IMG/VR virus record: IMGVR_UViG_3300005518_000033
Location: 1-29,190 of that record
Source: a virus
Length of the DNA: 29,190 nt
Strand: one strand, 5' to 3'
Within the stretch, counting starts at the first letter, position 1; the number at the start of each line of letters is the position of its first letter. The notes below the pieces were generated by a model. That model worked only from the letters and a program-made list of their open reading frames with translations, was not told the DNA's origin and did no database searches. Positions 655 through 22,731 of this stretch are shown one piece after another. A program made the position numbers and the translations under genes.

Positions 655-1209
655 ATGCCGCTACCAAGTGATTACGATTCACCATTAGGCGAAGAGCAGG
701 CTGAGCTAGCGATTAGAGAAGCGATTGTTGATTGCTTTTTAGCTGTAGCTGGTAACGTGCGATTCGGGTTTAGCAGCGCATTGGCGCATCCACGGCTGCG
801 GTATCCAGATTCAGCAAAGACGTGGGAATTGATTTCGTCAATTGTCGATCCAGATACAGCAAATCAGTCCGTTGAAGAGCAAACCAGATTATTACGATAC
901 TTCGCCGTATCTTGGAACGGACAAGCGCGTAAGTTAAGAGAATTGACGATCAACTACGCGATCAAGGTTAGTTTTGGATTCAAGGATGTCTATCAAACGG
1001 ACGCGAATCGAAATTCGAGTGATGAGATCGTTGCTTGTGTTATGCAGTATCAGAAGTATTTAGCAAACAACTTGAATCTTGGTCTTGATGATCGAGCATT
1101 CCATACTTATTTGCAAACGTCCGGTTTGAGATTCGTCTTAAAGGATAAACAAGGCAGTGCCGTTTTAGTTGCCGACAACAGACTTTCAGTAATTTTGGAG
1201 GTGTGCTAA
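655..1209 (+). CDS. Putative tail terminator / head-tail connector protein
   Basis: A 184-aa mainly helical, soluble protein of unrecognised family. It lies immediately before a 94-aa gene and the tail-tube gene, the usual place for a tail terminator or connector subunit; that role is positional inference. The Shine-Dalgarno is weak, so translation may be coupled to the upstream gene. Its TAA stop shares a base with the ATG of the next gene (TAATG), and its last codons contain the GGAGG ribosome binding site of that gene. Confidence 0.6.
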   Translation: MPLPSDYDSPLGEEQAELAIREAIVDCFLAVAGNVRFGFSSALAHPRLRYPDSAKTWELISSIVDPDTANQSVEEQTRLLRYFAVSWNGQARKLRELTINYAIKVSFGFKDVYQTDANRNSSDEIVACVMQYQKYLANNLNLGLDDRAFHTYLQTSGLRFVLKDKQGSAVLVADNRLSVILEVC

Positions 1210-1493
1210 TGGCTGAAGATACTCCAACTACAATGAAAGACAGTGATCCTGTAAAAGCTGAAAAGACTGTCAAGCTTGCTTCTGGTAAAGTTCCGCCAAC
1301 TTATGCGGAGCCTGGTCAACCAGACGCGGCCATTCATATTGGAATGGATCATATGATCTTCGTGCCGTCATTGGATATACAGAAGGCCGGTTTCACTCCA
1401 TATCGGCTTGACGAGAAGAATCAGCATGTCGATGCGACTATTGAGTTGTTGACGCAGTATCCCGGCATTTACAAACCGTTTGCGGAAATTTAG
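1209..1493 (+). CDS. Small conserved-looking tail-module protein
   Basis: A 94-aa acidic protein of unknown function. The ATG at 1209 is preferred over the in-frame GTG at 1203 because GGAGGTG at about 1197-1203 is well spaced for 1209. The N-terminal 30 residues are rich in Lys, Asp and Thr and look disordered; the rest looks folded. It sits directly before the tail-tube gene, so it may be a small adaptor or decoration subunit, but nothing in the sequence proves this. Confidence 0.6.
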   Translation: MAEDTPTTMKDSDPVKAEKTVKLASGKVPPTYAEPGQPDAAIHIGMDHMIFVPSLDIQKAGFTPYRLDEKNQHVDATIELLTQYPGIYKPFAEI

Positions 1494-1510
1494 CTCTGTG
1501 AGGTGATCTA

Positions 1511-2842
1511 ATGCCCGCTAGAAGAAGAGCCGAGCTAGTCCTGGCGTTCCCCAACCACGGCCAGGCTCAAAGCAATTTTGACACGCCGATGGCGGAATCT
1601 GTGCTTGTTAAGGCCTGGGCCATGACAAGTGATAGTTATCCAGGCATTGAGCGGGAGATTGATCGTCTGCTCAACTGCACGCTTGAGCGGCTTGTGCAGA
1701 AAGAATTGCTGCGTCGCATCATGCGTTTTAACTTTGACTTTGAAGCGAACGGTCAATTGATCTCTCAGTTACTCGCTTACAAAATGGGAGTTGCAGCCGC
1801 ACCAACCGGAACGCAAGCGAATCAGGTTCAAACCCTTACAATGACCGGAACTGGCGGCACGTGGCGTGTCGGTATCACCATTGGTCAGTACATCAAGTAC
1901 ACACCATATCTCGCATGGAACGTGTCAGCCGCTAATCTCAAAGCGGCAATCGAGAACCTGACTGCTATTGGACGCAATAATACAACAGTTACTCTGTCAA
2001 CTGGTGTGTATACGATTACACACGTCAACAATTTGGCGCGTGCAGAGATGCCGCAATACGTTGTTGACGGCGCGTTGCTTACTGGTGGTACTGTCACACC
2101 GTTGGAAACCGTGCCAGGTGTTCAAAAGACTCACGCACTTAGTGAGATCACGACGTTCCAGCAACCGGCATTTGGCTTTGTAGTGGGCTATCGCAATTCG
2201 TCACGTTTGCCGCGTCGGTACGATTCGTGTGTTGTGGATTCTTTGCGTATATCTGGTGCCCATGCGCAGCCGCGATTGACAGCGAATGTCGGAATCGTTG
2301 GAAGTGGAAATCTGAATGACGTGACTAGCGGCTATACTATTCCGGCTTGTACGATCTATAGACCAATTCGATTCAAGGATTGTATTCTGATTATTAATGG
2401 TGTTGACTACTCAAATCAAGCTGTCACCGGCAATCCTTGGCGGGATTTTGAGTTGACGATGAGTAGTGGGATCATTACTGACGACGACGCTTATCCAGGT
2501 CAGGATGAGGATGTTCATCGTTTGGAACGCGCAGATGAACGGCCCTGGGCTTTGAATGTCGGTATCCTGGGAGAGAAAGGCGACGATATCTACGCACTTG
2601 CTGAAGAGAACGCAGAAGTAGCGGTTTCGCTTCAGCTAGGCCGAACGAATGAGTGTGATATCATCACTCTTCCAAAGGCGTCCGTAAGCTTGCGTAATCC
2701 TGAAACAGCCTTTGACGGAACCGCGAAGCGAACAAAGATTCTGATCAACATTGAGCCTGAAGAGATACCGGGTGACGCCACGACACCTTACACGGTGGCG
2801 GCTAAGTTCGATGAAACGGCAACTCTGCTAACAGCGGCGTAG
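1511..2842 (+). CDS. Major tail (tube) protein with inserted beta domain
   Basis: A 443-aa protein whose position right before the chaperone pair and tape measure gene is that of the major tail-tube subunit. Such a protein would polymerise as rings around the tape measure. Residues about 104-202 look like a separate inserted module. The pattern is V-Q-T-L-T, a GGT turn, an alanine-rich helix (ANLKAAIENL), then alternating beta strands ending in GALLTGGTV. This matches a roughly 100-residue beta domain seen repeatedly in phage tail and surface proteins. The flanking parts (1-103 and 203-443) would form the tube fold. The start has a GAGGTG site eight bases upstream. A strong stem-loop follows the gene, as expected for a very abundant product. 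Confidence 0.75.
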   Translation: MPARRRAELVLAFPNHGQAQSNFDTPMAESVLVKAWAMTSDSYPGIEREIDRLLNCTLERLVQKELLRRIMRFNFDFEANGQLISQLLAYKMGVAAAPTGTQANQVQTLTMTGTGGTWRVGITIGQYIKYTPYLAWNVSAANLKAAIENLTAIGRNNTTVTLSTGVYTITHVNNLARAEMPQYVVDGALLTGGTVTPLETVPGVQKTHALSEITTFQQPAFGFVVGYRNSSRLPRRYDSCVVDSLRISGAHAQPRLTANVGIVGSGNLNDVTSGYTIPACTIYRPIRFKDCILIINGVDYSNQAVTGNPWRDFELTMSSGIITDDDAYPGQDEDVHRLERADERPWALNVGILGEKGDDIYALAEENAEVAVSLQLGRTNECDIITLPKASVSLRNPETAFDGTAKRTKILINIEPEEIPGDATTPYTVAAKFDETATLLTAA

Positions 2843-2879
2843 TTGCATAATTGATTTTGTAGGCTGTTGCTCCGATACC

Positions 2880-2932
2880 CAAACGCGGAGACTTCTTGTT
2901 AACTCAAGTATGTCTCCGCGTTTGTTACTTTT
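2880..2932 (+). terminator. Strong stem-loop after the tail-tube gene (terminator-like)
   Basis: Bases 2880-2892 and 2912-2924 form a perfect 13-bp inverted repeat (arm AAACGCGGAGAC plus a closing C-G pair). The 19-base loop can itself pair CTTG with CAAG. A T-rich tail (TTTGTTACTTTT) follows. This resembles a Rho-independent terminator, or an mRNA-stabilising hairpin, between the highly expressed tube gene and the chaperone gene. The ATG at 2910 falls inside the loop, which argues against its use as a start. Confidence 0.75.
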
Positions 2933-2948
2933 GAAAGGAAACCTTGCT

Positions 2949-3398
2949 GTGAGTAAACCTGAAGCAAAACTAAAGCTAGAGCCCGAGAAAAAGGGCTTTC
3001 AACGATCTCAACTAACAAATGTTGTAGAGGTAAAGTTGAAAATGCCCCTCCTTTATCCTTCAACAATTGAACAACCCTTTACGCTTTACATGCGTTTGCA
3101 GTTAGTCAAAGAGGCTGAGGAGGCACAAAGCAGATTCTTGATGCTTTCCAGTGACGAAGCTGATGCTGCGACGCATGAATACGACGCGCATATAATCAGC
3201 CTTCTTTCAGTGAAAGCGCCTGAAGGGTTTTCTGACTTCCCCTCTGTGGGTGATGATCCTCAATCTTTGCAGAAAGCGATCTATGATTACTTTCTGTTTA
3301 TAGAAGGATCAGTCGAAGAGCGTGAAGCAATGGCGCATATCTGTCGGCATCTTGTGTCACGCTATCGTCGGACTACTACTCCGTCCGACTATCTTTGA
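2949..3398 (+). CDS. Tail assembly chaperone, short form (gpG-like)
   Basis: A 149-aa protein using GTG at 2949, preceded by AAAGGAAA at suitable spacing. The longer frame from ATG 2910 is rejected because that codon lies in the hairpin loop. The gene stands between tail-tube and tape measure genes, the invariant place of lambda G / GT-type chaperones, which coat the tape measure protein during tail assembly. The sequence is charged, soluble and mostly helical after residue 45, consistent with that class. It ends at TGA 3396-3398 directly after CTT, a +1 shift site, and overlaps the next open frame by 95 bases. Confidence 0.75.
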   Translation: MSKPEAKLKLEPEKKGFQRSQLTNVVEVKLKMPLLYPSTIEQPFTLYMRLQLVKEAEEAQSRFLMLSSDEADAATHEYDAHIISLLSVKAPEGFSDFPSVGDDPQSLQKAIYDYFLFIEGSVEEREAMAHICRHLVSRYRRTTTPSDYL

Positions 3399-3837
3399 AC
3401 TGTTCAGAATTGTATGTGAGTACACGATTGCTCACACCTACGCGCTTGAAGAGTTAGATAGTAGCTATGACAATTGCGGCACGATGTTCTGTGATCGACC
3501 GGAGGCTGACGTTGATCATGGCTGTCCTGATTGTTTAGTATCGCAGTTGGTTAAAGAGTTAAAAGAAGATTGTGAAATTGCTTTTGATTCTGTAGCAGCT
3601 ACCAAAAGGGATAGAAGATTGTCTGAGTTGTGGCCCTGGTCATTTGAGAAGCTTCAGCAAGACGTTTCGATAATTAGCAGTGCTGATGCGTCGGTTGATG
3701 GTAAAGGGTATAGTCCAGATTGGACGATGAGAATTAAGACTCTTGTTTCGATCATGCGTGGTGAACGCTACAAAGCTCATAAAGCGCGTATGCTTGAGAT
3801 AACGAACAAGAATGGCGGACGAAGAGACACAGAATAA
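3304..3837 (+). CDS. Tail assembly chaperone extension (T part of a G-T fusion)
   Basis: This frame is open from just after a TAG at 3301-3303 to TAA at 3837. It has no ATG near its start and no good ribosome binding site, only a weak GTG at 3322, so independent translation is unlikely. Joined at 3395/3397 to the upstream frame it adds 146 residues, giving a fusion of about 295 aa. The added part is helical and charged, with a Cys cluster (residues around CGTMFC and CPDC) that could bind metal. In lambda-type phages the T extension contacts the tail-tube subunit. Its 3' end overlaps the tape measure start by 26 bases. Confidence 0.7.
   Translation, partial: KDQSKSVKQWRISVGILCHAIVGLLLRPTIFELFRIVCEYTIAHTYALEELDSSYDNCGTMFCDRPEADVDHGCPDCLVSQLVKELKEDCEIAFDSVAATKRDRRLSELWPWSFEKLQQDVSIISSADASVDGKGYSPDWTMRIKTLVSIMRGERYKAHKARMLEITNKNGGRRDTE
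3390..3399 (+). other. Candidate +1 programmed ribosomal frameshift site (CTT TGA)
   Basis: The chaperone frame ends TAT-CTT-TGA. The same TAT-CTT-TGA triplets mark the classic +1 frameshift site of the release factor 2 gene prfB. Slippage of the Leu-tRNA from CTT to TTT puts the ribosome in the frame GAA-CTG-TTC, which stays open to 3837. No Shine-Dalgarno-like stimulator like that of prfB is seen just upstream, and the base after TGA is A rather than C. The frame relation (+1, or equally -2) is certain; use of this exact site is inferred. Confidence 0.7.
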
Positions 3838-6634
3838 AGTGGAGCTTGAGTACACGGCGCGTGTCAACAGGGAATCCTTCAGACAAGCGCGTGAAGATGT
3901 GCGCCGTGAGACAGAGCAGTCGGCGTCTTCTGCAAAGAGTACGACGCCTGCTAGCGCAGCTACTGGTGTAGAGAGTGATCGTGAGATCGCTGAGATTCGT
4001 CGTGTGCGTGCTGAGCGGGATCGAGAAAGAGCGGAAAGGAACGCGCAAAGAACCAGAGAGGTTAATCAACAGCGTGTAGTCAGTGATGAAGAGTATCGTA
4101 TCATGCAGAGGCTGAACACGCAGCGAAATCGTTTTGATGAGGCGGAAATCAGAGGTAAGAAGAAAGTAAGAGACGAAGCTGTTAAGCTCGCTCAAGAGAA
4201 AGCGGCGGCTGAGCAGGCTGCTTTGCGAAGTGGTGCACCTGTCAATGCTTTGTATCCAGGCACGGGCCCGGCTAATTTCAATTTGACTGGTGGCTATAGA
4301 AGTTCTCTGCTTGCTAGAGCTAATAGCGATCAATTAACGTCTTTTCGTGATACGTACTCACCTGAAGGTGGTGGTGGTTTAGCTGCATTTCTTAAAGGCG
4401 GAAAAGGATCATCAACGTTTGGTACTCGCAGAGCTTTATCTGAAGCGGGATCGATTGTAGGCGCTCAAGAGATCGGACAGATATCCTCTTTGTTCGCGTT
4501 TGGGCCGCAATATGCGGTTGCGGCTGGTGTTCTCGCTGCGGCGGCGGCTTCACTCAAAGCTGTGCAGGCGTACATTGCCGAACGTGACGCAGTTCAGTCT
4601 TTGAACCGCGAGTTGGTTTCCACTAATCAAAGCTTTGGCGTGATTTCTGCCTCTACCGAAACTTTTACCGCACGCTTGAATCTTTCTAAGACTGAAGCTC
4701 TGTCCTTAACATCTTCTCTGGCTGTAGCGGCTGATAAGGTAGGGTTAAAGCTTTCTAATGTGCAAACTGAGCAGCTAACAACTCTATTGCAGAATAGAGG
4801 GTTGGATACGAAAGAACAAGAGAAGTTTATCCAACAAATCGGATCTGATTTACCGAAAGCATTTGAAGAGGTGACAAAGCGCGATCCTTCTGTCTTCTTG
4901 GATGAATACGCACGAAGCATTAATACAACTTCAGACAAACTCACGATCTTGCAAAAGAATCAGTTACTGTTCAATGAGTTATTGGCCCGGTCTGGGGATG
5001 GTGCTGCTATTGCTCAGGCTCATTTGAATTCTCTTGGTGGTGAGTATGAAAGGCTCTGGGCCTTGGCTAAAGGTGGCACTGCTTTTGTCGGCGAGCAAAT
5101 AGTTGCTGATGTGACGGCGTTTGTTTCTGGTCTTATATCTCCTATCACAGGTAAAGCTGAAACTTTCAGCGGAAAGTACGCTTACGAAGCCGGTATCCAG
5201 GACGAGGACGCTAAGCAAGCTGAATTGAATCGAAGAGCAATCGCTAATAACTTGTTGAAGAAGAAAAGAGAGAGTGATCTTGAAATCTTAAGTAGGCAGC
5301 AGCAAGCGGCTAATATTTACACGACTTACTTTGCGGATCGTTCCAGGGAAAATGTTTTAGCCGGTAGATTTTCTCAATCAGCGCAGTATAAGAACTTGCT
5401 TGAAACATCAGAACAGTTTGAGGGGGATAAAGGGAAGTTATCGACTGTCGAGGCTAAAAAGAAATCTGATGAGTTTTTGGACGCGAAGATTTCACAACTG
5501 GAAGAAGCTCGCCAAAAGGTTATTTCATTCAGTAAGACTTTTCGTGATGAATTCGCGGAGCTTGCGCAACTTCGCTTGCCTACTGAAAGAGACAATCCCT
5601 ATGTAAAAATCTTTTCTGACGGTGAGCTTGCCGCTTCGCGTGCGCGTGAGCGTTTCGCTCTTGCTGGTGATGAGGTTGTGAGTCAGGTTCTCAAAGCTCA
5701 GCGAGCGATGCAGGAAAGCGAAGTGTACGAGCTTCGATTAAAAGATAATTTGAGCGCTGTTAAGCTTGAATTTGAAGCCGCGCAACTTGCCAGACCGTTC
5801 ATTGAACTAACTGGCGAGATGAAGAGAACTATTTCAGTCTTTGAAGCTGAACTTAAAACGATTTCCGGCCCTGCGTTGTTGTTTCAAGCGAGACAAATAG
5901 AAACTGGTGGCTATGCGCAGTTCGCTCCGCTTCCTGGTGCTTTGCAAGGGGCTGCTGGATTTCAGTTACAGCAGCTTGATTCCCTTCGGCGTAGGTACAT
6001 CGCGCAACCTGGTCTTGGTGGTGAAGAGATTCAGCATCTTCTCAATCAACAGTACATCGGTCTTTATCAAAAGTTGTCGCCCCAGGAACGACAACAAGTA
6101 TTCCAGCAAGGAACGACTAGATTTGCATTTGCTGACGCTTTTCGCGGTGAAGAGAGGTATCAACGCCAACAAGTAGAGCTTGCAATTCAGCGTGCAGAAG
6201 TTTCCAGAGGTGCTGTTCAGGAGGCGCGAGCACAATTAACAGAGCTTGAGAGACAGTCTCGCAGGCCTGGCGCTAATCAGGATGTCACTCGCGCTCAGTT
6301 CTTGGCGATCACCGGCGCACTGCCAAGAGAAGAGCTTACGCCTGATCTAATTAAGGGCCGCATTGTAGCGTTGACGGAAGAAGCTCGCTTTACGCGCGAG
6401 CGTGAGGAACGTGCTCGCAAGGCTGTTGATGCTACCGCGAAGTTTCAGAATCAGGTAGCAGGAAACTTACAAGATATTCTTAGATCAATAAATGAACGAA
6501 AGGATCAAGTGATAATTGAAGTGCTTGATCGCACTGATAATGTGAAGATCGCTACGCTTGGACAAGCCTTTACGCCGGATTCATCCGTTACGCAACCAAG
6601 CGCTTCAGCGCTAGCAAGAGCACTTCAATTCTAA
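3812..6634 (+). CDS. Tape measure protein
   Basis: The longest gene in the window (940 aa), directly after the chaperone pair. It would set tail length and be ejected ahead of the DNA. The first 150 residues are extremely charged and coiled-coil-like, rich in Arg, Glu and Gln. A single hydrophobic stretch lies near residues 226-255 (alanine-rich, AVAAGVLAAAAASL). Long amphipathic helices fill most of the remainder. No peptidoglycan-hydrolase motif was recognised. From the rule of about 1.5 angstrom per residue, a tail near 140 nm would be expected; that is an inference. The Shine-Dalgarno is weak and translation may be coupled to the overlapping upstream frame. Confidence 0.85.
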   Translation: MADEETQNKVELEYTARVNRESFRQAREDVRRETEQSASSAKSTTPASAATGVESDREIAEIRRVRAERDRERAERNAQRTREVNQQRVVSDEEYRIMQRLNTQRNRFDEAEIRGKKKVRDEAVKLAQEKAAAEQAALRSGAPVNALYPGTGPANFNLTGGYRSSLLARANSDQLTSFRDTYSPEGGGGLAAFLKGGKGSSTFGTRRALSEAGSIVGAQEIGQISSLFAFGPQYAVAAGVLAAAAASLKAVQAYIAERDAVQSLNRELVSTNQSFGVISASTETFTARLNLSKTEALSLTSSLAVAADKVGLKLSNVQTEQLTTLLQNRGLDTKEQEKFIQQIGSDLPKAFEEVTKRDPSVFLDEYARSINTTSDKLTILQKNQLLFNELLARSGDGAAIAQAHLNSLGGEYERLWALAKGGTAFVGEQIVADVTAFVSGLISPITGKAETFSGKYAYEAGIQDEDAKQAELNRRAIANNLLKKKRESDLEILSRQQQAANIYTTYFADRSRENVLAGRFSQSAQYKNLLETSEQFEGDKGKLSTVEAKKKSDEFLDAKISQLEEARQKVISFSKTFRDEFAELAQLRLPTERDNPYVKIFSDGELAASRARERFALAGDEVVSQVLKAQRAMQESEVYELRLKDNLSAVKLEFEAAQLARPFIELTGEMKRTISVFEAELKTISGPALLFQARQIETGGYAQFAPLPGALQGAAGFQLQQLDSLRRRYIAQPGLGGEEIQHLLNQQYIGLYQKLSPQERQQVFQQGTTRFAFADAFRGEERYQRQQVELAIQRAEVSRGAVQEARAQLTELERQSRRPGANQDVTRAQFLAITGALPREELTPDLIKGRIVALTEEARFTREREERARKAVDATAKFQNQVAGNLQDILRSINERKDQVIIEVLDRTDNVKIATLGQAFTPDSSVTQPSASALARALQF

Positions 6635-6638
6635 GAGT

Positions 6639-7076
6639 ATGGCCGGTCGTTGGGCAGTAGGATCAATTGCTGGTGTCGCTCTAACTGATTCAGGCGGCAG
6701 AAACATGCGTGTTGACGTGATTGACGGCGAAGAGTTGAAATCGGTGTTTGTTGGATCGTCAGTTCAGGCGCTTGATTTCTCGGTGCACACGCAATTAGTG
6801 AATCACGGTGTTAAAGGTGTCCATTTCGGTGTCCACATCGCTTTGTTGGCGATCTCGAAATTGAATTCAATCGTTTCAGCAATTGAAGCTGCTGCTAACA
6901 GCAATACTACGTTCGCGGTAGTTTTAGCTGATGCACTAGGGACGGACAAGGTTGACAACTTCACTGTCAATTGTGTTGTTGATTACCAGGCGATCAATGG
7001 AAAGGTCTTTCAACGTGGAGCACTGAGCAATATCTACGTAAAAGATATCTTGTTCAGATTTCTATCTGTGAGTTAG
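6639..7076 (+). CDS. Distal tail / tail-tip protein
   Basis: A 145-aa beta-rich protein immediately after the tape measure gene, a position commonly held by distal tail or small tail-tip proteins. Histidines cluster around residues 50-66 (patterns VHT, NHGVKGVHFGVH), which could be structural or metal-binding. No family was recognised. The gene starts five bases after the tape measure stop with only a weak ribosome binding site, suggesting coupling. Confidence 0.6.
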   Translation: MAGRWAVGSIAGVALTDSGGRNMRVDVIDGEELKSVFVGSSVQALDFSVHTQLVNHGVKGVHFGVHIALLAISKLNSIVSAIEAAANSNTTFAVVLADALGTDKVDNFTVNCVVDYQAINGKVFQRGALSNIYVKDILFRFLSVS

Positions 7077-7089
7077 GGAGTCACGAATT

Positions 7090-7494
7090 ATGTCGAAGAC
7101 AAATTACGAACGCAATCGCACTCTTGATGTGCGTTACGGTGGAGCAGCAAGCTATACGAAGCCCGCCACAGTATACCTTGGTCTGTTTACGAGTATGCCA
7201 ACAGTTTTAGGTAATGACGGCACAGAAGTTTCAGGCGGATCGTACGCGCGTGTCGCTGTAACGAATAACGCTACTAATTTCCCTAATGCCAGTGCTGGTG
7301 TCAAGACTAATGCCACGGCGATTACGTTCGTACAGGCGACGGCGTCATGGGGATCGGTTGTTGGTGTGGGAATCTTTGATGCTGTGAGTGGTGGCAACTT
7401 GCAGGATTTCGCGGCGCTTACAACTCCAAAGACAGTACAGAATGGCGACGTGTTCAGTCTTCCGATAGGCCAGGCGACGTTTACGGAGAGCTAG
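7090..7494 (+). CDS. Gp80-like small tail / fibre-associated protein
   Basis: A 134-aa protein with a recognisable phage pattern: an N-terminal YLGLFTSMP segment, EVSGGSYARVAVT in the middle, then WGSVVGVGIFDA and GGNLQDFAAL, ending in a GD-x-FSLPIG strand. This arrangement is typical of small beta-sandwich proteins found beside tail fibre genes in many phages (Gp80-like domain, named from memory). It has a clear GGGAG site before the ATG. It lies directly upstream of the fibre gene with one base between them, so a role at the tail tip or fibre base is likely. Confidence 0.6.
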   Translation: MSKTNYERNRTLDVRYGGAASYTKPATVYLGLFTSMPTVLGNDGTEVSGGSYARVAVTNNATNFPNASAGVKTNATAITFVQATASWGSVVGVGIFDAVSGGNLQDFAALTTPKTVQNGDVFSLPIGQATFTES

Positions 7495-7495
7495 A

Positions 7496-8827
7496 ATGAA
7501 ACACTTTGCGGTAGCTGGTGTTCGTTCACTTATCACCGGCACCTCTTTAGCAGCTATAGAGTTCCCTGAGCCCGTGTCAACACTCACGTTGACACGTGTG
7601 TTTGTTCGCATTGCTGTTGCGAATGCTAATGGTGACGCTACATTTGATGTCAAGAAGAACGGCGTGACCATCTTTGCTTCTCCTACTGATCGGCCTAAGA
7701 TTGTGGCTGGTCAAACGTTTGGTTTTGTTACTGTATCAGTGTCTCTTTCAGAGAATGATCTTGTTCAGGTTGATGTTGTTTCCGCTCCGCTTGGTGGAAT
7801 TACCGGCTTCTATGCAATGCTTACTCTGAATGATGGGTTTGATTATGGTGCAGCAAACGGCATTGCAACACTCGGTTCTGATGCAAAACTCACAGCAAGT
7901 CAACTACCAGCGTTAGCGATCAATGATACGTTTCTAGTGGCGTCCCAAGCCGCGATGCTCGCACTGACCGCACAACGCGGTGATATTGCGATTCGTACTG
8001 ATCTGTCACCACAGCAAGCTTTCATTCTTACAGTGGATGATCCAACAGTACTCGCAAACTGGACGGACTTTGCGATCTTTGTTCTTTCAGTCGGTGGCGA
8101 TCTCACCGGCACTCTTCCTAATCCAGCTATTGCCGCTCTTGCCGTTACTGATGCTAAAGTCGCAGCAGCTAATAAAGATGGCGGAGCAGCTACTCCGTCA
8201 ATGCGTACACTCGGTACAGGCGCGCAACAGGCGGCGGCTGGAAACGATTCGAGACTGTCAGACGCGCGGGCACCGACTGGTAGTGCTGGCGGCGACTTGA
8301 CAGGTAATTATCCTAATCCTGCTCTTGGTACGAGTGGTGTTACTGCTGCAACTTATGGTGATGCTACTCACATACCACAGATAACGGTTGACGCGAAAGG
8401 TAGGATCACAAACGCATCGAATACTTCTTTCACTTCTCTTCCAACCAGGCAGGAGCTTATCAAGACAACTGCGTCTCTCGCTACTTTGACTGATGAGACG
8501 GGTTTCATTTCATTAGGTAAGAGTGGAACCTTGATGAGGGTTGTAGCGGATCGCGCTGCTCGTGTTCGGCTATACAATACGGCGGCTGCGAGAGATGCAG
8601 ATCGATCCCGTGCTGAAGGTGGAGTTAGGAGTAGTACTCAAGATGGATTGTTGTTGGAAATCATCTTTACTTCTGGGCTGTTGACAGTGTTCACTCAAGA
8701 CCCGGTGATCGATTATTACAACGGTGATAATCCAGTCGTTGATAAATTGTACTATACGATTGCGAATGACACGGGATCAACGAGTGCTGTACAGATCACG
8801 TTTGATTACGTGTATCACGAAATTTAG
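7496..8827 (+). CDS. Tail fibre protein with GGDLTG repeats
   Basis: A 443-aa protein. The N-terminal 125 residues look like a beta-sandwich attachment domain. The centre carries two copies of the fibre motif GGDLTG-x-x-PNP (near residues 200 and 265), and the second is followed by the shaft sequence VTAATYGDATHIPQITVDAKGRI. These are well-known elements of phage tail fibre shafts. The C-terminal 120 residues form another globular beta domain that could bind the host surface. GGAGAG lies ten bases before the ATG. The likely role is host recognition as a trimeric fibre. Confidence 0.8.
   Translation: MKHFAVAGVRSLITGTSLAAIEFPEPVSTLTLTRVFVRIAVANANGDATFDVKKNGVTIFASPTDRPKIVAGQTFGFVTVSVSLSENDLVQVDVVSAPLGGITGFYAMLTLNDGFDYGAANGIATLGSDAKLTASQLPALAINDTFLVASQAAMLALTAQRGDIAIRTDLSPQQAFILTVDDPTVLANWTDFAIFVLSVGGDLTGTLPNPAIAALAVTDAKVAAANKDGGAATPSMRTLGTGAQQAAAGNDSRLSDARAPTGSAGGDLTGNYPNPALGTSGVTAATYGDATHIPQITVDAKGRITNASNTSFTSLPTRQELIKTTASLATLTDETGFISLGKSGTLMRVVADRAARVRLYNTAAARDADRSRAEGGVRSSTQDGLLLEIIFTSGLLTVFTQDPVIDYYNGDNPVVDKLYYTIANDTGSTSAVQITFDYVYHEI
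8094..8320 (+). repeat. Two copies of the GGDLTG-xx-PNP fibre repeat
   Basis: The coding sequence around 8094-8126 and again around 8288-8320 encodes near-identical GGDLTG-x-x-PNP units about 190 bases apart. The codons differ more than the amino acids do, so the repeat is maintained at protein level and is not a recent DNA duplication. Confidence 0.7.
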
Positions 8828-8840
8828 GGAGAGTTAAGTT

Positions 8841-9755
8841 ATGGCAACGCGAACATCGACAACGATCTTCTTTGCTAATGATAGTGACGCGCATTTTCGC
8901 GCCTGGGCGCAAGAAATTAATGACGCGCTGACGGCCTTTGGTTGGGTTAAGAGTACTGAGACTGGCGAGATAAACCTGACTACAGTAACGAAGCCCAGCG
9001 CGGCCAACACTGCACAAGGATTTCAAGTCTGGAAGATGGCTGACTCCCTGCAAGCGTCATTTCCAGTCTTTATGAAGATCGAATACGGATCGGGTGATGC
9101 GACGAACGATCCGGCTGTTTGGATTACACTTGGCACCGGATCAAACGGTTCAGGCACTTTGACTGGTACTCTGTCCACGCGCCGCATATATGGTGGAGTC
9201 GCGGATACGGCGCGAGCAAACAACTATTTTTCTTCTGGTGACACAAATCGTTTCTGTATGGCCTGGGGAAGTGATGCCGCTGCTACTTCAGCAACTAGAT
9301 TCTTGTATGTTGGTATTGAACGTTTGAAGAACGCTGATGGCACTGATGCGAACACTGGTTCATTTGTTATGGGAATTGGCGGCGACGCGACGGACGGTGC
9401 ATTTCGCGCGCAAGTTGCACCTTTTTCTGGTAGTGTGCCACCACAGCAGCAAAATGGGCCTGTGTATCCTCAAGATACCACGACTGTCAGTATGATCTTT
9501 GGCGGCACGACTTACACGCTTCCGATCTATCCGTTTGGTTTCTTTCCTCTTAATCCGATCATGAACTTTTGCGGTTATCTTAACCCGGACTTTACCCGTG
9601 AAGTTGCTGTTACGCTATCTGTGTATGGTGCGAATCATACTTACCTGCCATTAGGCACAGGTGGAGCTAATTTCACGATTACGGGTGCTAGTGCGTGGCC
9701 TGGTAATGCTTCAGGTACGGGCTCAGCGTATCGCGCAATGATGAGGTATGAGTGA
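8841..9755 (+). CDS. Tail-tip / receptor-binding associated protein
   Basis: A 304-aa protein rich in Gly, Thr and Ser, typical of beta-structured virion surface proteins. The N-terminus carries a helical segment with FRAWAQEINDAL and GWVKSTETGEI, a layout seen in phage tail-tip proteins of unknown function. The middle is low in charge and the C-terminus contains aromatic-rich segments (IYPFGFFPLNP). No enzyme motif was found. GGGAGAG precedes the ATG. Its place between the fibre gene and the DUF4214-PPC gene suggests part of the adsorption apparatus. Confidence 0.6.
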   Translation: MATRTSTTIFFANDSDAHFRAWAQEINDALTAFGWVKSTETGEINLTTVTKPSAANTAQGFQVWKMADSLQASFPVFMKIEYGSGDATNDPAVWITLGTGSNGSGTLTGTLSTRRIYGGVADTARANNYFSSGDTNRFCMAWGSDAAATSATRFLYVGIERLKNADGTDANTGSFVMGIGGDATDGAFRAQVAPFSGSVPPQQQNGPVYPQDTTTVSMIFGGTTYTLPIYPFGFFPLNPIMNFCGYLNPDFTREVAVTLSVYGANHTYLPLGTGGANFTITGASAWPGNASGTGSAYRAMMRYE

Positions 9756-10652
9756 GTGGCTAACAAGTTGCAGATTCCGGTAAATAGTGGTGGTGGATCG
9801 ATCTTGATCCCAACTACCACAGTGGCCATTCCACATCTACGCAAGGTGAAACTTGTTACACCGGAGCAGGTGCAAACCGCTCCAGGTCAGATCATCGCTC
9901 TGACTGTGCAGGAATACGTCACTACTCTCTACCTAAATACAATGCTGCGTATTCCTACTGGTGCTGAGATGTCTAGCGCTGTTGCTGCTTTAAGTGCTGG
10001 CTGCGCTGCCGGGACACTTCTTAACGCGACGAAGACTTTAATCGATAGTCTGTTTACATCATCCTTTTATGTTTCAAGAGGAGAATCAAATAGTCAGTAT
10101 GTTCAGGACTTGTATTTATCGATCTTAGGAAGAGCTAGTCCGCCTCTTGCGCCAGCACCGTCACCTACTCCGATTGCTGGTGACACGTCTCTAATCAACA
10201 ACATCTCATTACCAGGACAGAGTGCTACGTCTGGAAACTGGAAGTGGTATTACATCACACTTCCAACCGGCGCATCTCAATTGCAAGTCACTGCTACAGG
10301 CTCTGGTGACGGCATCTTGCATACGCGCTTTGGCGCGAAGCCGGATTTGTCAACGTATAACTGTCGAGCGTACACTGTGAGTCCTCAAATTTGTACGCAC
10401 GCGAATCCGGCATCAGGTACTTGGTGGATCGGAGCCTACGCTAATAGCGGAACTATAAACTTCAGTATGCTTGCAGTTGTAAGCGGCTTGAGTGACGGCA
10501 GTTATTGGGTTGATAATCTGAATGCAGCGACGTTGACTGCACAGCAAGTGCGCGACGCTTTCAATTATGGTACTGAGCATTCAAATAGAGTTGCAGCGTT
10601 TTGTACGCACTCTGCTCCGGTGACTGGTCAAATCTGGCCGCGTGGCAAGTAG
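9756..10652 (+). CDS. DUF4214-PPC tail adhesin-like protein
   Basis: A 298-aa protein beginning at GTG, with GAGG nine bases upstream and directly abutting the previous stop. Residues about 52-128 carry two copies of a Y-V-x-x-L-Y-L-x-x-x-L-x-R motif (EYVTTLYLNTMLR and QYVQDLYLSILGR) with a Ser-Phe rich middle, the pattern of the DUF4214 domain of secreted and surface-layer bacterial proteins. A Pro-rich linker (130-141) leads to a PPC-type beta-sandwich at about 145-245, shown by the strands WYYITLP, HTRFGAKPDLSTYNCR and GTWWIGAYA. PPC domains usually accompany extracellular proteases as binding modules. Here there is no protease, so a binding or adhesion role in the tail is inferred. Confidence 0.65.
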   Translation: MANKLQIPVNSGGGSILIPTTTVAIPHLRKVKLVTPEQVQTAPGQIIALTVQEYVTTLYLNTMLRIPTGAEMSSAVAALSAGCAAGTLLNATKTLIDSLFTSSFYVSRGESNSQYVQDLYLSILGRASPPLAPAPSPTPIAGDTSLINNISLPGQSATSGNWKWYYITLPTGASQLQVTATGSGDGILHTRFGAKPDLSTYNCRAYTVSPQICTHANPASGTWWIGAYANSGTINFSMLAVVSGLSDGSYWVDNLNAATLTAQQVRDAFNYGTEHSNRVAAFCTHSAPVTGQIWPRGK

Positions 10653-10664
10653 CGTTAAAATTCA

Positions 10665-12863
10665 ATGCCTGTTTTCATACCTGTAGTTGAGCCTCAAGCA
10701 CCGTCTGTCACTGTGGCGGTAGTGTTTGCTGGTGCCACTACGCTCACAGTCAATCCTACCGTTAGTCTTCATGCGCCAGTAACCTTCAATGGCGCGACTG
10801 CTCTAGTTGTTACAGGTCAGAATACTCTTGCAGGACAAGTATCACTTGATGGTGCTACTCAGTTAGTGGTAAATGGAAGATTGAACGCTGACGCGGACGT
10901 ATTTGGTTCGGTGACATTCGCTGGAGCGACTGCCTTGTCTGTGACAGCACAAGGCAATGTGACCAGTCCCGTCACGTTTGCCGGTCAAACGCAGTTAGTC
11001 GTCTCGCTGGTAGTGCAAGCAGCGATAAGTTTTGGATTCACGATCTTTGTTGATGTCACAGATGCGTCGTTGCAAAGCGCTCTAACTAACAACATTCGCC
11101 GGTATCGTGCACGTTTGGTAGTTGACGGTGTAGAGATTCCGATCATTCGTGCGCAGCTTCAGGCACCATCTGACAAGCTTGGAACAGAATTAACAGTGGT
11201 GCTTGCTGATCCCAATGTCAGTGCTGTGACTGCTACTTCTTCCATCAACTTTGATATAGCTCTTTGGGTGAGTGGAGCCTGGTTATGGATCAACTTGCTT
11301 CAAGGCGGGAAGTTGTCGCAACGCTCAGCGCGTTACGTGAATGAAGAAGGATTGCCAAGAGATGCCGTTGAGCTTTCGATTGTTGATATCATTGGAGATC
11401 GATGGAACCGAGCGCCAAGACAACAGGTCTTCATGTACAATTCTGCGATCATCGATGCTCCTACAGGTGAAGCGGTGCAGTCTGAGACAGTATACACGAC
11501 TCAGGGTGTTATTCTGCCGCCTTTATATATAGGCCTACCTGGATTGTCTTTGCAAGATGTTTTGAACTATGCTTATGTGACTGGTTGCGGGTTTGATCGC
11601 GCGCTTACCAACATCCCAAATTTTCCAGTCGAGCAGGTGTCATTCACGATGGTTGGTGGCTATGATGCTGGTGTCAGAGGTCTTCTGCAAACATTCTCGC
11701 CGGTAGTATTCGCCTCCGGCAATGATCTTTGGATCATTGATCCAGATCAGCCGCTGCCGTCCGGCGTATCAGCAGTGGATTTCGTCGCGGCATTTTCTGC
11801 CAGCATTGATGATGTGCTTCCGGCACATGAGCCGGTAAATGGCTTGCTGGTGCGGCTGAACGACTTTACTGGTGGTGTGGGCGAAGATTTCTTTACTGAG
11901 CGATTAGAGACTTCCACAATTCGCACAGGTGACAACGAGCAGGACACTGAACGACGGATCAGAGAGTATCGCGCATTTAGTGATCCGACAAAGATCGTAC
12001 GTGAGGAGGTCGCTTATACCAGAACCCGTATCCTGGATTCTACGTTCAACGTGATCTCTATTGAAACACGCACAGATCATTTCGACATCCTCAATCGTCC
12101 AACCGGCTATTCTTTGTCTGTGGAAATGCTGCTTCCTGATATAAGTAATCCGCTGGTGAAAATCTTGCAAACAGTTACCAGTGAAGAGCAGTTCATCACT
12201 TATGTCCCTGATCCGCTGCATCCGACCCAGGACATTCAATCGCGCATCGAAACTCATACCAGCGGATTGATCCTGGTTGATGCTGGTAATCAGTACCTTG
12301 GAAAGAATTACAGGATACCTTACATTGACGCTCATAAGAGTGGCTACATTACTGGCGAACAGCAGACAGTGGAGTTCGGGTTGATTCGCACTGTGATTGA
12401 GCAACTGTCCTTTAATGGTGGTCAAGTGCGTTATGAGACGCGAGTGACGAATCACATTGCTGATGTGCCGGATAAGATCACGGTTAAAACTCTTCCCGGC
12501 AGTGCTCAAGTGAATCGAAGTTTGAGCGCTCATTATCGATACATCCTATTGACGGTTCCAGGCACAGATTCGACTAGCCGCAGAGTTGCGGAGTTCGACG
12601 CATCGTTGATGCCTTATGCTACGGCGTTAGCTATTGGACAGCGGCGATTAAACAATCTCAATAATCCGTTGAAAGAGCTTGCAGTAACTATGTCGTATGT
12701 GAACCCCGGCTTGCGTCGAGGCGCAACCATTCACGTTCAAGGTCGATCAGGATATTTAGGAAACTACATCGTGAAAGGTTATATGATCATTGTTGAGGGA
12801 ATTGATTTGAAGACCTACAAAGCTTCAATGACTTTTCAAGCGCGAGAGTTGAGGGTTATTTGA
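10665..12863 (+). CDS. Large minor tail / baseplate-hub-like protein
   Basis: A 732-aa protein. The first 115 residues consist of five short beta repeats (consensus VTFAGATALVV) about 20-24 residues apart. From residue 125 on, a larger mixed alpha/beta body resembles phage tail-tip hub proteins in length and place, with segments such as RYRARLVVDGVEIPIIRAQ. The C-terminal part (RLNNLNNPLKELAVTMSYVNPGLRRGATIHV) has the look of a hub barrel. The link to a hub is context-based and no catalytic motif was seen. No good Shine-Dalgarno precedes the ATG at 10665. Confidence 0.6.
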   Translation: MPVFIPVVEPQAPSVTVAVVFAGATTLTVNPTVSLHAPVTFNGATALVVTGQNTLAGQVSLDGATQLVVNGRLNADADVFGSVTFAGATALSVTAQGNVTSPVTFAGQTQLVVSLVVQAAISFGFTIFVDVTDASLQSALTNNIRRYRARLVVDGVEIPIIRAQLQAPSDKLGTELTVVLADPNVSAVTATSSINFDIALWVSGAWLWINLLQGGKLSQRSARYVNEEGLPRDAVELSIVDIIGDRWNRAPRQQVFMYNSAIIDAPTGEAVQSETVYTTQGVILPPLYIGLPGLSLQDVLNYAYVTGCGFDRALTNIPNFPVEQVSFTMVGGYDAGVRGLLQTFSPVVFASGNDLWIIDPDQPLPSGVSAVDFVAAFSASIDDVLPAHEPVNGLLVRLNDFTGGVGEDFFTERLETSTIRTGDNEQDTERRIREYRAFSDPTKIVREEVAYTRTRILDSTFNVISIETRTDHFDILNRPTGYSLSVEMLLPDISNPLVKILQTVTSEEQFITYVPDPLHPTQDIQSRIETHTSGLILVDAGNQYLGKNYRIPYIDAHKSGYITGEQQTVEFGLIRTVIEQLSFNGGQVRYETRVTNHIADVPDKITVKTLPGSAQVNRSLSAHYRYILLTVPGTDSTSRRVAEFDASLMPYATALAIGQRRLNNLNNPLKELAVTMSYVNPGLRRGATIHVQGRSGYLGNYIVKGYMIIVEGIDLKTYKASMTFQARELRVI
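10719..11003 (+). repeat. Five tandem VTFxGATxLxV beta repeats
   Basis: Within the N-terminus of the 732-aa protein, residues about 19-29, 39-49, 59-69, 83-93 and 103-113 share the pattern [VS]-x-[FL]-x-G-A-T-x-L-x-V. Spacing is 20, 20, 24 and 20 residues. The last copy has GQT instead of GAT. Codons vary between copies, so conservation is at protein level. The repeats probably make a beta-helix or stacked-strand stalk. Confidence 0.7.
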
Positions 12864-13180
12864 TGCCTAGTATCACTGACATCAATGATATCTCGATTAC
12901 TTACATTTCAATGAGTTTGCAAGAACTACAAGATAGTGCGGTATTCGTGATCAAGGTTCCTTGCTTAGCTCATTCAAGTTTGCGAAGTTTGGCTGATGCA
13001 AGCGCAAAGGTGTTAGTGCGACTTAATGGAACCAGCGATCCTTTTATTGACATCGCGGCTAATCCAATTGATTTGAATCCTTATGCTGGTCAGACAAAGA
13101 GTTTTGATGTCAAGGTTCATACGAATGACGTGAACGGTCTCATGCGCGCGGCGCTTCCAGTAGAGGTTGCTTTTATATGA
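12863..13180 (+). CDS. Small tail-module protein, unknown
   Basis: A 105-aa beta-rich protein of unknown family. The ATG at 12863 shares a base with the TGA of the previous gene (TGATG), which favours it over the in-frame TTG one codon earlier. The gene ends in ATGA overlap with the next gene. The tight coupling on both sides suggests that its product is made in step with its neighbours and works in the same tail-tip structure. Confidence 0.55.
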   Translation: MPSITDINDISITYISMSLQELQDSAVFVIKVPCLAHSSLRSLADASAKVLVRLNGTSDPFIDIAANPIDLNPYAGQTKSFDVKVHTNDVNGLMRAALPVEVAFI

Positions 13181-14622
13181 CAACCCGGAAGCGTTTCACA
13201 GTTCGAAGAGGTGATACTGTTTCTCTTGCGATCCCTGTGCAGACAGTAACGCAAAAGGAAGCGATTGCTGTTGAGACTGAGCAAGAGAATAAGAATGTAC
13301 TTCCTTATGACGAGTTAGATGATCAGTACACATTTAGGAAGAACGTGCTAGTGAGATTCTTTGATCTTGGCACTCGTTTACGAAGTGTTCCTAGCGCACC
13401 TTCCGATCCTTTGAGACAGCGGAGCTATCCAACTGCTGACAATGCTACTCCGAATGCTGGTTACTATGATGAATACATTGAGGTCACGTTGGATAATCTT
13501 CTGCATGGATTTGCTTCTTATCAACTCGACGTTCCCGATCCTTCGGCTGTATGGACAGGTGCCGCGCACATAACGCTTGCCGGTAGTACTTGGAAGCTCA
13601 TGGATGACATGCTGCTTGGTCGCAGAACATCCAATTTTATAACTGGTGATCCATTAGATACACTCGATCCTACAGGTTCCTCCATTGTTAACGAAACTAG
13701 CACAGGTGATCCTTCACACGTTCCGCGAAAGCTTCCTAATTGTATGCCGCTATATCTGAGTAATGATGCTCGTACACGTGGGTTAGTTTTTGTCTTGCCA
13801 AGAAGTCTGACAATTGGGACTGATCTGATTCAAATCATAAATAATACTTTAGATGACGTGCTGGCACACTGGCATTCAAGAGTACCTAGTGACAATGATG
13901 CTAATGAACGTTGGAATCTGTTGAATGTTAGTTCTGGTGCAGCGTTCATGCAGTTATCTCATGATCGGAATCTATTCATTAACAAGAGCGGTCGATTGCT
14001 TGTCATAGCCGGTGATAATTATTTCAGCTTTGATACGGGACACGCTGCTTATAAAGTCACTGCAACGGATCAGTTCACCGACGCTGCTGCGGAGTTTTCT
14101 TTCAAGGGAAAAGACAATCGCATTTATCTTCGCCCTTTATATACTGGCTACTACCTGATCGATCATCCTTATGCTCTTGCTACTAGCAGTCTAGGGAACG
14201 TCGGCATTCCGGGGGATACGGTTTATCACAGCGTAGGAGCAACGCCACCTTTGACACATTTCTTCTTTACGGATCATGCGTTTCACGTCGTTGGTCGAAC
14301 TATGCCGATATATCCGGCGCTTGTTAAAGGGCCAAGCTCTATTCTGGGCCGCATAGCTTTTGACGATAGTATTACCTATGACGTTGATGAAGTGTTTCTT
14401 GATTTTGCAAAGCGCAACTTCTGGTTATCGCAAGCGAATCTTAGTTCACAAGCCGGATCGCATCCATCACCGATCATCGGTACGATGCCGTTGCATCAGG
14501 ATTTTCCGGACCTACAGATGGTGCTGCGTCATGGCTCCCTGGTAGCGCTTGTTACTCAAGACGACAAGGTGTTCTATGTGTGGGCCAACCAGGATTTGTT
14601 TGGCGCGGAGATACCGGCTTAA
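13177..14622 (+). CDS. Virion-associated protein, probably tail tip or appendage
   Basis: A 481-aa protein of unrecognised family. It is beta-rich with many aromatic and Asp-Gly turns, and has no signal peptide or membrane helix. A proline-rich, low-complexity segment around residues 65-90 probably links an N-terminal attachment domain to a large C-terminal globular domain. Its translation is coupled to the preceding gene through ATGA and there is a GAGG about ten bases upstream. Being the last large gene of the tail block, a receptor-binding or appendage role is plausible but not shown. Confidence 0.55.
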   Translation: MTTRKRFTVRRGDTVSLAIPVQTVTQKEAIAVETEQENKNVLPYDELDDQYTFRKNVLVRFFDLGTRLRSVPSAPSDPLRQRSYPTADNATPNAGYYDEYIEVTLDNLLHGFASYQLDVPDPSAVWTGAAHITLAGSTWKLMDDMLLGRRTSNFITGDPLDTLDPTGSSIVNETSTGDPSHVPRKLPNCMPLYLSNDARTRGLVFVLPRSLTIGTDLIQIINNTLDDVLAHWHSRVPSDNDANERWNLLNVSSGAAFMQLSHDRNLFINKSGRLLVIAGDNYFSFDTGHAAYKVTATDQFTDAAAEFSFKGKDNRIYLRPLYTGYYLIDHPYALATSSLGNVGIPGDTVYHSVGATPPLTHFFFTDHAFHVVGRTMPIYPALVKGPSSILGRIAFDDSITYDVDEVFLDFAKRNFWLSQANLSSQAGSHPSPIIGTMPLHQDFPDLQMVLRHGSLVALVTQDDKVFYVWANQDLFGAEIPA

Positions 14623-14721
14623 ATCGCTGGTTTCACGCTTGAGGTTTGATTGGTTCTGTGGTAGATTCCAGCATGATCCTTGCTTGCTCTGATGCTGACT
14701 AAAAGATTCTAGGAGTGAGCA

Positions 14722-15363
14722 ATGATACCCGTCATTCTATGCTTTCAACAAATACCAGTATCAACCAGTCCAATCTACTTAGGCCCAACCGGAACGATTA
14801 TTCTGGTGACGGCTTGTATCTTGCTAGGATTCTTAGCGTTTCGACAAAGAAATTGGAAGACGACTGCTGACGCCTCCAGCGCCGAGCTTGTTATTCAAAG
14901 AGGAACTTCTGATCGGTTGAGAGAAGAGAAGTTAGCTTTGCAGAAAGAGAAAGACCTATTGAAAGAAGAGAATATAAGACTTCATGCTCAAACCGATCTC
15001 AAGCCTCTTGTGACTGAAATTACGAATTGGATATCTGAAGGTCGAGGTCGCTTTGATGAAGCAACAAAGCAGCTCACTCAAACAAGAGATGCACAGGATA
15101 AAGGATTGCGAGAGTTGTTTGCAGAGGTGTCAGCGAATCGCCGCGTCTCTGAAGAGGCTTTCAGAACGTACACAACTACATTCGTTCAGCATGTCGAAGA
15201 AGATAGACTTGGTTGGACGAAGCTTCTTGCTATGTTTGCTACGATGGAGCAACGATTGAATCAAACAGCGATACAAGTAGGTAGAGTGAAGTGGGATACT
15301 CCGTCAGCATCTCAGCCAGAGTCAACGCATAAGGAACGAACAAGAACATGGAAATCCTCTTGA
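14722..15363 (+). CDS. Membrane-anchored coiled-coil protein (late, possible lysis or entry accessory)
   Basis: A 213-aa protein with one hydrophobic segment at residues about 22-40 (TIILVTACILLGFLAF) followed by RQRNWK. It therefore looks like an N-anchored membrane protein with its body on the side of the positive charges. Residues about 64-95 and 105-190 are strongly heptad-like coiled coil. The C-terminus is short, basic and disordered. AGGAGTGAG before the ATG is the best ribosome binding site in this half. It is the last gene before the control region. Spanin-like, holin-associated or superinfection roles are possible, but no lipoprotein box or endolysin neighbour is visible. Confidence 0.65.
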   Translation: MIPVILCFQQIPVSTSPIYLGPTGTIILVTACILLGFLAFRQRNWKTTADASSAELVIQRGTSDRLREEKLALQKEKDLLKEENIRLHAQTDLKPLVTEITNWISEGRGRFDEATKQLTQTRDAQDKGLRELFAEVSANRRVSEEAFRTYTTTFVQHVEEDRLGWTKLLAMFATMEQRLNQTAIQVGRVKWDTPSASQPESTHKERTRTWKSS

Positions 15364-15389
15364 CAACTGAAGCTACAAGATCGTATACT

Positions 15390-15425
15390 GGCGTCATGTT
15401 TGAGCCGACCGTGACAAGCCTTTTT
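15390..15425 (+). terminator. Possible terminator closing the late operon
   Basis: GGC-GTCA at 15390-15396 can pair with TGAC-(AA)-GCC at 15412-15420, leaving a two-base bulge, and is followed at once by TTTTT (15421-15425). The stem is short and imperfect. Its place, just after the last late gene and upstream of the promoter for the next block, supports it. Confidence 0.4.
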
Positions 15426-15566
15426 CCAGGATCGAACCGACTGCCACAACCAGCTTTTCGCCCGTTGCGATCCTCACGGTGCCCCGCTTTCTCGGGCCGG
15501 ACAGCCTGATTCCTTCCTTTCTCCAAACTCGCCGGTAAAGCCCAACCTTCTGCATGGACAGTTTAG

Positions 15567-15598
15567 GTGGTTGACGAGCCTGTTTTCTAGTGGTTGAC
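15567..15598 (+). repeat. Direct repeat GTGGTTGAC, 23-bp period, at the promoter
   Basis: GTGGTTGAC occurs at 15567-15575 and again at 15590-15598. The second copy contains the -35 box. The 23-bp spacing is close to two helical turns, so both copies face nearly the same side of the DNA, as expected for paired activator or repressor half-sites. Confidence 0.55.
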
Positions 15599-15622
15599 AA
15601 AGGCCGCGGATTGTGCTAGTAT
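15594..15622 (+). promoter_or_regulatory. Sigma70-type promoter for the replication block
   Basis: TTGACA at 15594-15599 is a perfect -35 box. After a 17-base spacer comes TAGTAT at 15617-15622 as the -10 box, preceded by TG-C (15614-15616), an extended -10 element. Transcription would start near 15629 and run into the helicase gene at 15671. It is the best promoter I found in the window. Confidence 0.8.
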
Positions 15623-15626
15623 CCGC
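15606..15626. promoter_or_regulatory. Operator-like dyad over the -10 box
   Basis: GCGGAT at 15606-15611 and ATCCGC at 15621-15626 are exact inverted repeats with nine bases between them. The dyad covers the -10 hexamer, so a bound dimer would block RNA polymerase. The XRE regulator at 17355 is the obvious candidate ligand, by proximity only. Confidence 0.5.
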
Positions 15627-15670
15627 TCCGCTTTCCGAGCCTTGCTGACTCGTCAAGCCTGCACATTTCA

Positions 15671-22336: not shown

Positions 22337-22731
22337 CAGAGCTTAAAGTACCACTACTCTACTATCTTGCTTCAGCCTATGATCACCATGAATCAAAGGT
22401 AAAGGCTGCGCGTTACATGGATGTGCTGGCACTGACTATTCAACTGATCGACAAGAGTTATCATATCTTCTCGCCTATTGTACATAATCATTTTGTTGCT
22501 GAAACACTGCAAACCAGGGAGAAAGGCGCGTTTGAATTTTGGAAAGCTTATGACACTAACATCCTGGGCCGGTGCGATGTCTTGCTAATCTATTGCGATG
22601 ATGAAGGCAATTGGCGCAAGAGTGCCGGGATCAACGGCGAGTATTCATTCGCTTTGGTGAGACAGATCAAAGTAATGTATGTTGTTCGTGTTGGTGAAGG
22701 TTTCGAGATCAGGAACCATGAACCTAAGTGA
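22333..22731 (+). CDS. DUF1937 / nucleoside deoxyribosyltransferase-like protein
   Basis: A 132-aa protein with the DUF1937 pattern: YYLASAYDHHESKVKAARY at the N-terminus, FSPIVHNHFVAE, FWKAYDTNILGRCDVLLIY and GINGEYSFAL. The fold is the Rossmann-like one of nucleoside 2-deoxyribosyltransferases, in which a Glu in the last segment is the nucleophile (here in NGEY). A role in deoxynucleoside turnover is likely but untested for this branch. GAGGGG lies upstream of the ATG. It overlaps the polymerase start by 14 bases. Confidence 0.7.
   Translation: MTELKVPLLYYLASAYDHHESKVKAARYMDVLALTIQLIDKSYHIFSPIVHNHFVAETLQTREKGAFEFWKAYDTNILGRCDVLLIYCDDEGNWRKSAGINGEYSFALVRQIKVMYVVRVGEGFEIRNHEPK

Follow-up and report, generated by a model that had tools for sequence, protein, structure and literature searches.

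A predicted +1 frame junction at a prfB-like CUU_UGA shifty stop in the putative tail-chaperone genes of a long-tailed phage

Two overlapping reading frames of a metagenome-derived viral contig from IMG/VR (the window, 29,190 bases; G+C 47%), here termed ORF A and ORF B, very probably meet at a CUU_UGA shifty stop that is passed by a +1 frameshift, as predicted from their sequence and from their place in a putative gpG/gpG-T-like chaperone module of a long-tailed phage. As the initial annotation had proposed, the upstream frame ends at TAT-CTT-TGA and the downstream frame lies +1 relative to it, and the sequence confirmed both: with T3396 skipped, the next codon is GAA (3397-3399), followed by CTG-TTC-AGA (E-L-F-R), and the conceptual A-B fusion forms one protein of 295 aa. 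On a far more tentative reading, the phage would in effect borrow from its host a slip site that senses release factor 2 (RF2), minus the Shine-Dalgarno (SD) sequence, and use it as a low-efficiency ratio setter. The features of the locus are listed in Table 1.

The gene order around the junction runs from a likely major tail protein over ORF A and ORF B to the tape measure gene, whose first 26 bases lie within the end of ORF B. The likely major tail protein shares 84% aa identity with its counterpart in a related contig (L005, see below), and the tape measure orthologue of that contig matches phrog_28, tail length tape measure protein, with E=1.6e-7. Two overlapping ORFs situated between a major tail protein (itself a weak match, E=0.0065) and a tape measure correspond to the layout of a chaperone module. 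The tail-chaperone identity given in the initial annotation is based on gene position and architecture; neither ORF A nor ORF B matched any Pfam or PHROG family. Separate structural models of A and B reached a pLDDT of 46-51, too poor for use, and yielded no meaningful Foldseek match. The putative chaperone assignment draws on position, the two-frame design and the neighbouring tape measure (by the phrog_28 match in L005).

Table 1. Features of the predicted frameshift locus (coordinates of the window)
Feature	Position	Strand	Remarks
Likely major tail protein, 443 aa	1511..2842	+	phrog_10909 major tail protein E=0.0065 (weak); precedes chaperones
Shine-Dalgarno AAAGGA of ORF A	2934..2939	+	from sequence; kept in L005
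ORF A, putative upstream tail-assembly chaperone (gpG-like), 149 aa	2949..3398	+	GTG 2949 start, ends GAC-TAT-CTT-TGA-A
Incidental open stretch of +1 frame overlapping ORF A	3304..3396	+	open in window, closed in L005 by TAG 7886-7888
Candidate stimulator hairpin, 7 bp, GTCGGAC (3367-3373) / GTCCGAC (3383-3389), 9-nt loop	3367..3389	+	
Predicted shift site with TAT (3390-3392) in the E site, CTT (3393-3395) in the P site and TGA (3396-3398) in the A site	3390..3399	+	same in both other contigs
ORF B, putative T-like extension in +1 frame, 146 aa, without own start codon	3397..3837	+	66-67% aa identity to L005 from first codon past junction
Tape measure protein, 940 aa	3812..6634	+	L005 orthologue matches phrog_28

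The shift site as a word is unremarkable; its position and conservation are what is remarkable. For the 9-mer TATCTTTGA, a single occurrence in the window compares with 0.31 expected by chance, and its bare presence was for this reason dropped as evidence. The chance that a given ORF of the record ends in CTT-TGA is ~1% (CTT accounts for 2.3% of codons and TGA for ~45% of stops). Among the 30 other tabulated ORFs of the record, not one has this ending.

Conservation was assessed by comparing the module in three contigs, namely the window, IMG/VR 3300005445_000007 and IMG/VR 3300035725_000002 (L005). The first of the two relatives adds little, being nearly identical to the window with an unchanged ORF A and 14 differing bases in ORF B, whereas L005 represents an independent lineage with 60-61% (ORF A) and 66-67% (ORF B) aa identity and ~70% identity in DNA. 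ORF A of L005 (7441-7899) starts with ATG at the same place and behind the same GGAAACCTTGCT. Both other contigs retain the 15 junction bases, GACTATCTTTGAACT, without change, and in all three contigs TGA is followed by A. Aligning the junction in related phages had been set beforehand as a test of the predicted site, and in L005 the two frames meet at the identical TAT-CTT-TGA-A with no other join site possible. Here, the +1 frame reads TAG-ACT-ATC-TTT-GAA, placing a stop four codons ahead of the junction; since this TAG closes the +1 frame, the switch of frames is confined to the 11 bases ACTATCTTTGA, within which CTT to TTT is the sole good re-pairing predicted. Accordingly, a frameshift anywhere in ~3304-3386 was ruled out, as the frame is closed there in L005. 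The initial annotation had described the +1 frame as open across 3304-3398, which is true for the window but incidental, as L005 closes the same frame; its overall coordinates, 3304-3837, are the stop-to-stop span of the +1 frame, with functional support from 3397 onward only. Scans of viral collections for further lineages returned the same two contigs only, leaving two independent lineages, and when genome contigs, phages and plasmids were searched with A, B, the tail protein or the tape measure, no relative was convincing, the weak matches being due to a shared tail-protein domain or chance.

The same comparison bears on how ORF B could be translated other than by a fusion. The second frame had been said to lack a convincing start, and indeed the only standard starts of the +1 frame ahead of the TGA in the window, GTG 3322 and TTG 3352, are both missing in L005, where the first ATG, GTG or TTG of ORF B occurs ~50 residues in, beyond the most conserved stretch and behind residues that are conserved as well. 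Given this absence of start codons and the shared junction, ordinary independent initiation is ruled out, as is an indel artefact of a single assembly. What is left to an independently translated ORF B is termination-reinitiation or a non-standard start (AUC, AUU or AUA) near the TGA. Phage operons commonly reinitiate at a preceding stop, and both phages have kept an ATC two codons ahead of the skip point. However, the near-cognate codons around the junction have weak SD-like pairing only, L005 offers no ATG, GTG or TTG until residue 50 of the conserved ORF B, and frameshift fusion is widespread in chaperone pairs located between tail and tape-measure genes (PMC5009743). We thus consider separate translation of ORF B very unlikely.

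A slip of -2 instead of +1 would reach the same frame, as the frame arithmetic permits, and -2 shifts have been described in tail chaperones (phage Mu). Yet, for tRNA-Leu(GAG), moving from CUU to AUC would create a first-position mismatch, whereas the +1 move to UUU involves a first-position G:U, and the stop codon beside the shift codon likewise fits +1 (PMC5009743), which renders a -2 shift extremely unlikely. We give almost no credence to a sequencing or assembly indel by which the two ORFs would really be one continuous frame: indels in the record are conceivable, as the DNA polymerase region breaks into three frames at ~22.9-23.4 kb, but the same frame relation and site recur in the other two contigs, of which L005 has diverged to 61-67% protein identity.

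In favour of the predicted +1 junction, substitutions between the window and L005 follow a coding pattern on both sides of it. Across the three codon positions, ORF A carries 53/31/91 of them and ORF B 39/29/80. Ahead of the TGA, frame 0 keeps 16 of 28 residues and the other frames 10 each; past the TGA, 45 of 60 residues are identical in the +1 frame versus 23 and 25 in the other two. Judged by these patterns, coding stays in frame 0 through CTT and moves to the +1 frame with the base after T3396. Furthermore, codons are identical at only 44% of the identical residues, so that four in a row (GAC TAT CTT GAA, plus T) are mildly unusual, and the 15-base junction block is one of three blocks of at least 12 identical bases in the fused gene. 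This supports, short of proof, selection acting on the DNA.

The slip itself we infer to proceed as in bacterial prfB, where tRNA-Leu(GAG) reads CUU and can re-pair on UUU while termination at UGA is slow (PMC12421855, PMC13245932, PMC5009743). Most ribosomes would terminate at TGA 3396-3398, yielding the 149-aa chaperone, while in a minority, with UGA in the A site awaiting RF2, the P-site tRNA-Leu(GAG) on CUU would slip +1 to UUU; GAA would then be read next, with 146 further codons leading to the 295-aa A-B fusion (...DYL-ELFR...). By analogy to lambda, the N-terminal chaperone part may coat the tape measure, and the extension may recruit the tail-tube protein.

How efficient such a shift would be can be gauged from the same systems. 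Among variants examined in prfB, CUU_U is the +1 site with the highest efficiency, and the shift is favoured by a weak codon in the E site, such as UAU (PMC5009743, PMC13245932). In prfB, efficiency is raised by an AGGGGG SD three bases upstream, by the E-site UAU and by C after UGA (PMC12421855, PMC13245932, PMC5009743). With the SD missing and A following the UGA, an efficiency much below that of prfB is to be expected. This fits the role, as lambda needs ~30:1 gpG to gpG-T (PMC5009743) and 6-7% frameshifting was measured in an HK97-related chaperone cluster (PMC3711429). A few percent of fusion being enough for tail chaperones, a stimulator is possibly unnecessary, and a bare CUU_UGA may deliver this range. 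Points that weigh against the predicted shift are the in vitro behaviour of CUUUGA, which without stable flanking structure is only weakly shift-prone even when RF2 is absent (PMC6321510), the restriction to two lineages, both devoid of the SD, the A instead of C after TGA, and the failure of A and B to match a chaperone family. As the fusion would compete with termination at UGA, it is conceivable, if only tentatively so, that the RF2 activity of the infected cell sets the chaperone ratio and thereby tail assembly.

The initial annotation was correct in that the prfB-type SD stimulator is missing: the best anti-SD pairing within the 33 nt upstream amounts to -3.2 kcal/mol, versus -10.3 kcal/mol for prfB AGGGGGUAU on the same scale. 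Its further claim that a different stimulator is needed was not established, as the bare shifty stop may give a few percent, although a hairpin could help. The candidate hairpin of the window abuts the TAT codon on its 5' side, which is the position of the SD in prfB, and its stability (-10.2 kcal/mol for 3360-3389) is matched by ~1% of synonymous recodings and by 1.5% of 30-nt windows. In L005, the counterpart is a weaker and different 7-bp stem with two G-U pairs, ending 2 nt further upstream (-4.6 kcal/mol), and because of this we treat the hairpin of the window as a candidate and not as a proven element. 3' of the junction, the window and L005 have different RNA structures, and no shared downstream stem was seen.

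A refinement is worth weighing, in which CUU_UGA remains the site of the +1 shift while the upstream hairpin, acting as a mimic of the SD, and not the bare shifty stop determines how efficient the shift is. Apart from its placement next to the E-site codon and its uncommon stability among synonymous recodings, such a role would agree with a 70S system in which a stable upstream hairpin exerted ~60% of the SD effect on CUUUGA (PMC6321510). However, the hairpin tested there (H1) had 12 GC-rich pairs and was a stronger stem than that of the window (PMC6321510), the L005 stem is weak and offset, and two lineages are too few to judge. We regard this refinement as possible, but rather doubtful.

Compared with known systems, the site of the window is closest to that of bacterial prfB, the gene of release factor 2, with an identical UAU CUU UGA (E-site UAU, shift codon CUU and UGA read by RF2) and a shift of +1 (PMC12421855, PMC13245932). 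Unlike prfB, it has no AGGGGG SD three bases upstream and carries A, not C, after UGA; the shift would occur where a long functional ORF ends and not at ~codon 25, and its product would be a tail chaperone, so that no autoregulation results. With lambda gpG/gpG-T, the module shares overlapping frames between tail-tube and tape-measure genes, predicted to yield the upstream product alone plus a minority fusion (PMC5009743), whereas lambda uses -1 slippage on a heptamer and the window +1 at a stop codon. Other phages use +1 shifty stops at CCC, for instance tsh of Listeria PSA/A118/A500 (CCC_UGA), SPP1 gp17.1* (CCC_UAA) and PhiC0139 of the lactococcal 936 group (CCC_UAG) (PMC5009743, PMC6316719, PMC4759559). 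These are likewise +1 shifts within a phage structural module at a slippery codon beside a stop; however, they extend the tail-tube (major tail) protein via the proline codon CCC, while the window would extend a chaperone via CUU. A +1 shift in a chaperone pair is found in cluster F1 mycobacteriophages (Che8, Maravista) and very likely in HSTV-2 (PMC11256854, PMC5009743), although the upstream ORF of Che8 ends with GAT AGC GAG TGA and has no CTT before the stop, so that its shift site is a different one.

Thus, tail-chaperone frameshifting and prfB shifty stops are each known, and it is their combination that is new; in the open-access literature, we found no earlier report of CUU_UGA in tail chaperones. 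According to the authors of PRFect, all CUU-stop +1 sites in RECODE are prfB, and their tool skips this motif (PMC10885494), so annotation of the PRFect type would miss such fusions. A conserved CUU_UGA in a tail chaperone would extend the prfB slip site to a phage gene of the structural module and open a connection of RF2 level with phage tail assembly to direct testing. A further suggestion is that the SD is what raises a low-level slip to the efficiency seen in prfB, since a phage for which a few percent suffice apparently manages without it.

Several further observations concern the same contigs. The DNA polymerase gene of the window (22676-24277) shows an apparent three-frame split with changes near 22.9 kb and 23.3-23.4 kb; a related contig also looks broken at its DNA polymerase, which could be due to sequence errors or a real feature. 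Between window and 3300005445_000007, identity is high over 688-17325 and drops abruptly to ~82% leftward and ~70% rightward, indicating either mosaic exchange or joins made in assembly. The 14 ORF B differences between these two contigs all fall into 3645-3693, resembling a small conversion tract, with ORF A remaining identical. In L005, the tail protein harbours a domain (residues 101-211; 6301-6633) with weak similarity to minor tail proteins of mycobacteriophages and to tail sheaths of Gordonia phages. Finally, ORF B contains a C-x4-C-x10-C-x2-C pattern at 3475-3534 (NCGTMFCDRPEADVDHGCPDC), conserved also in L005 and spanned by a below-threshold match to Pfam RNHCP, and the cysteine spacing suggests a zinc-binding site in the putative chaperone extension.
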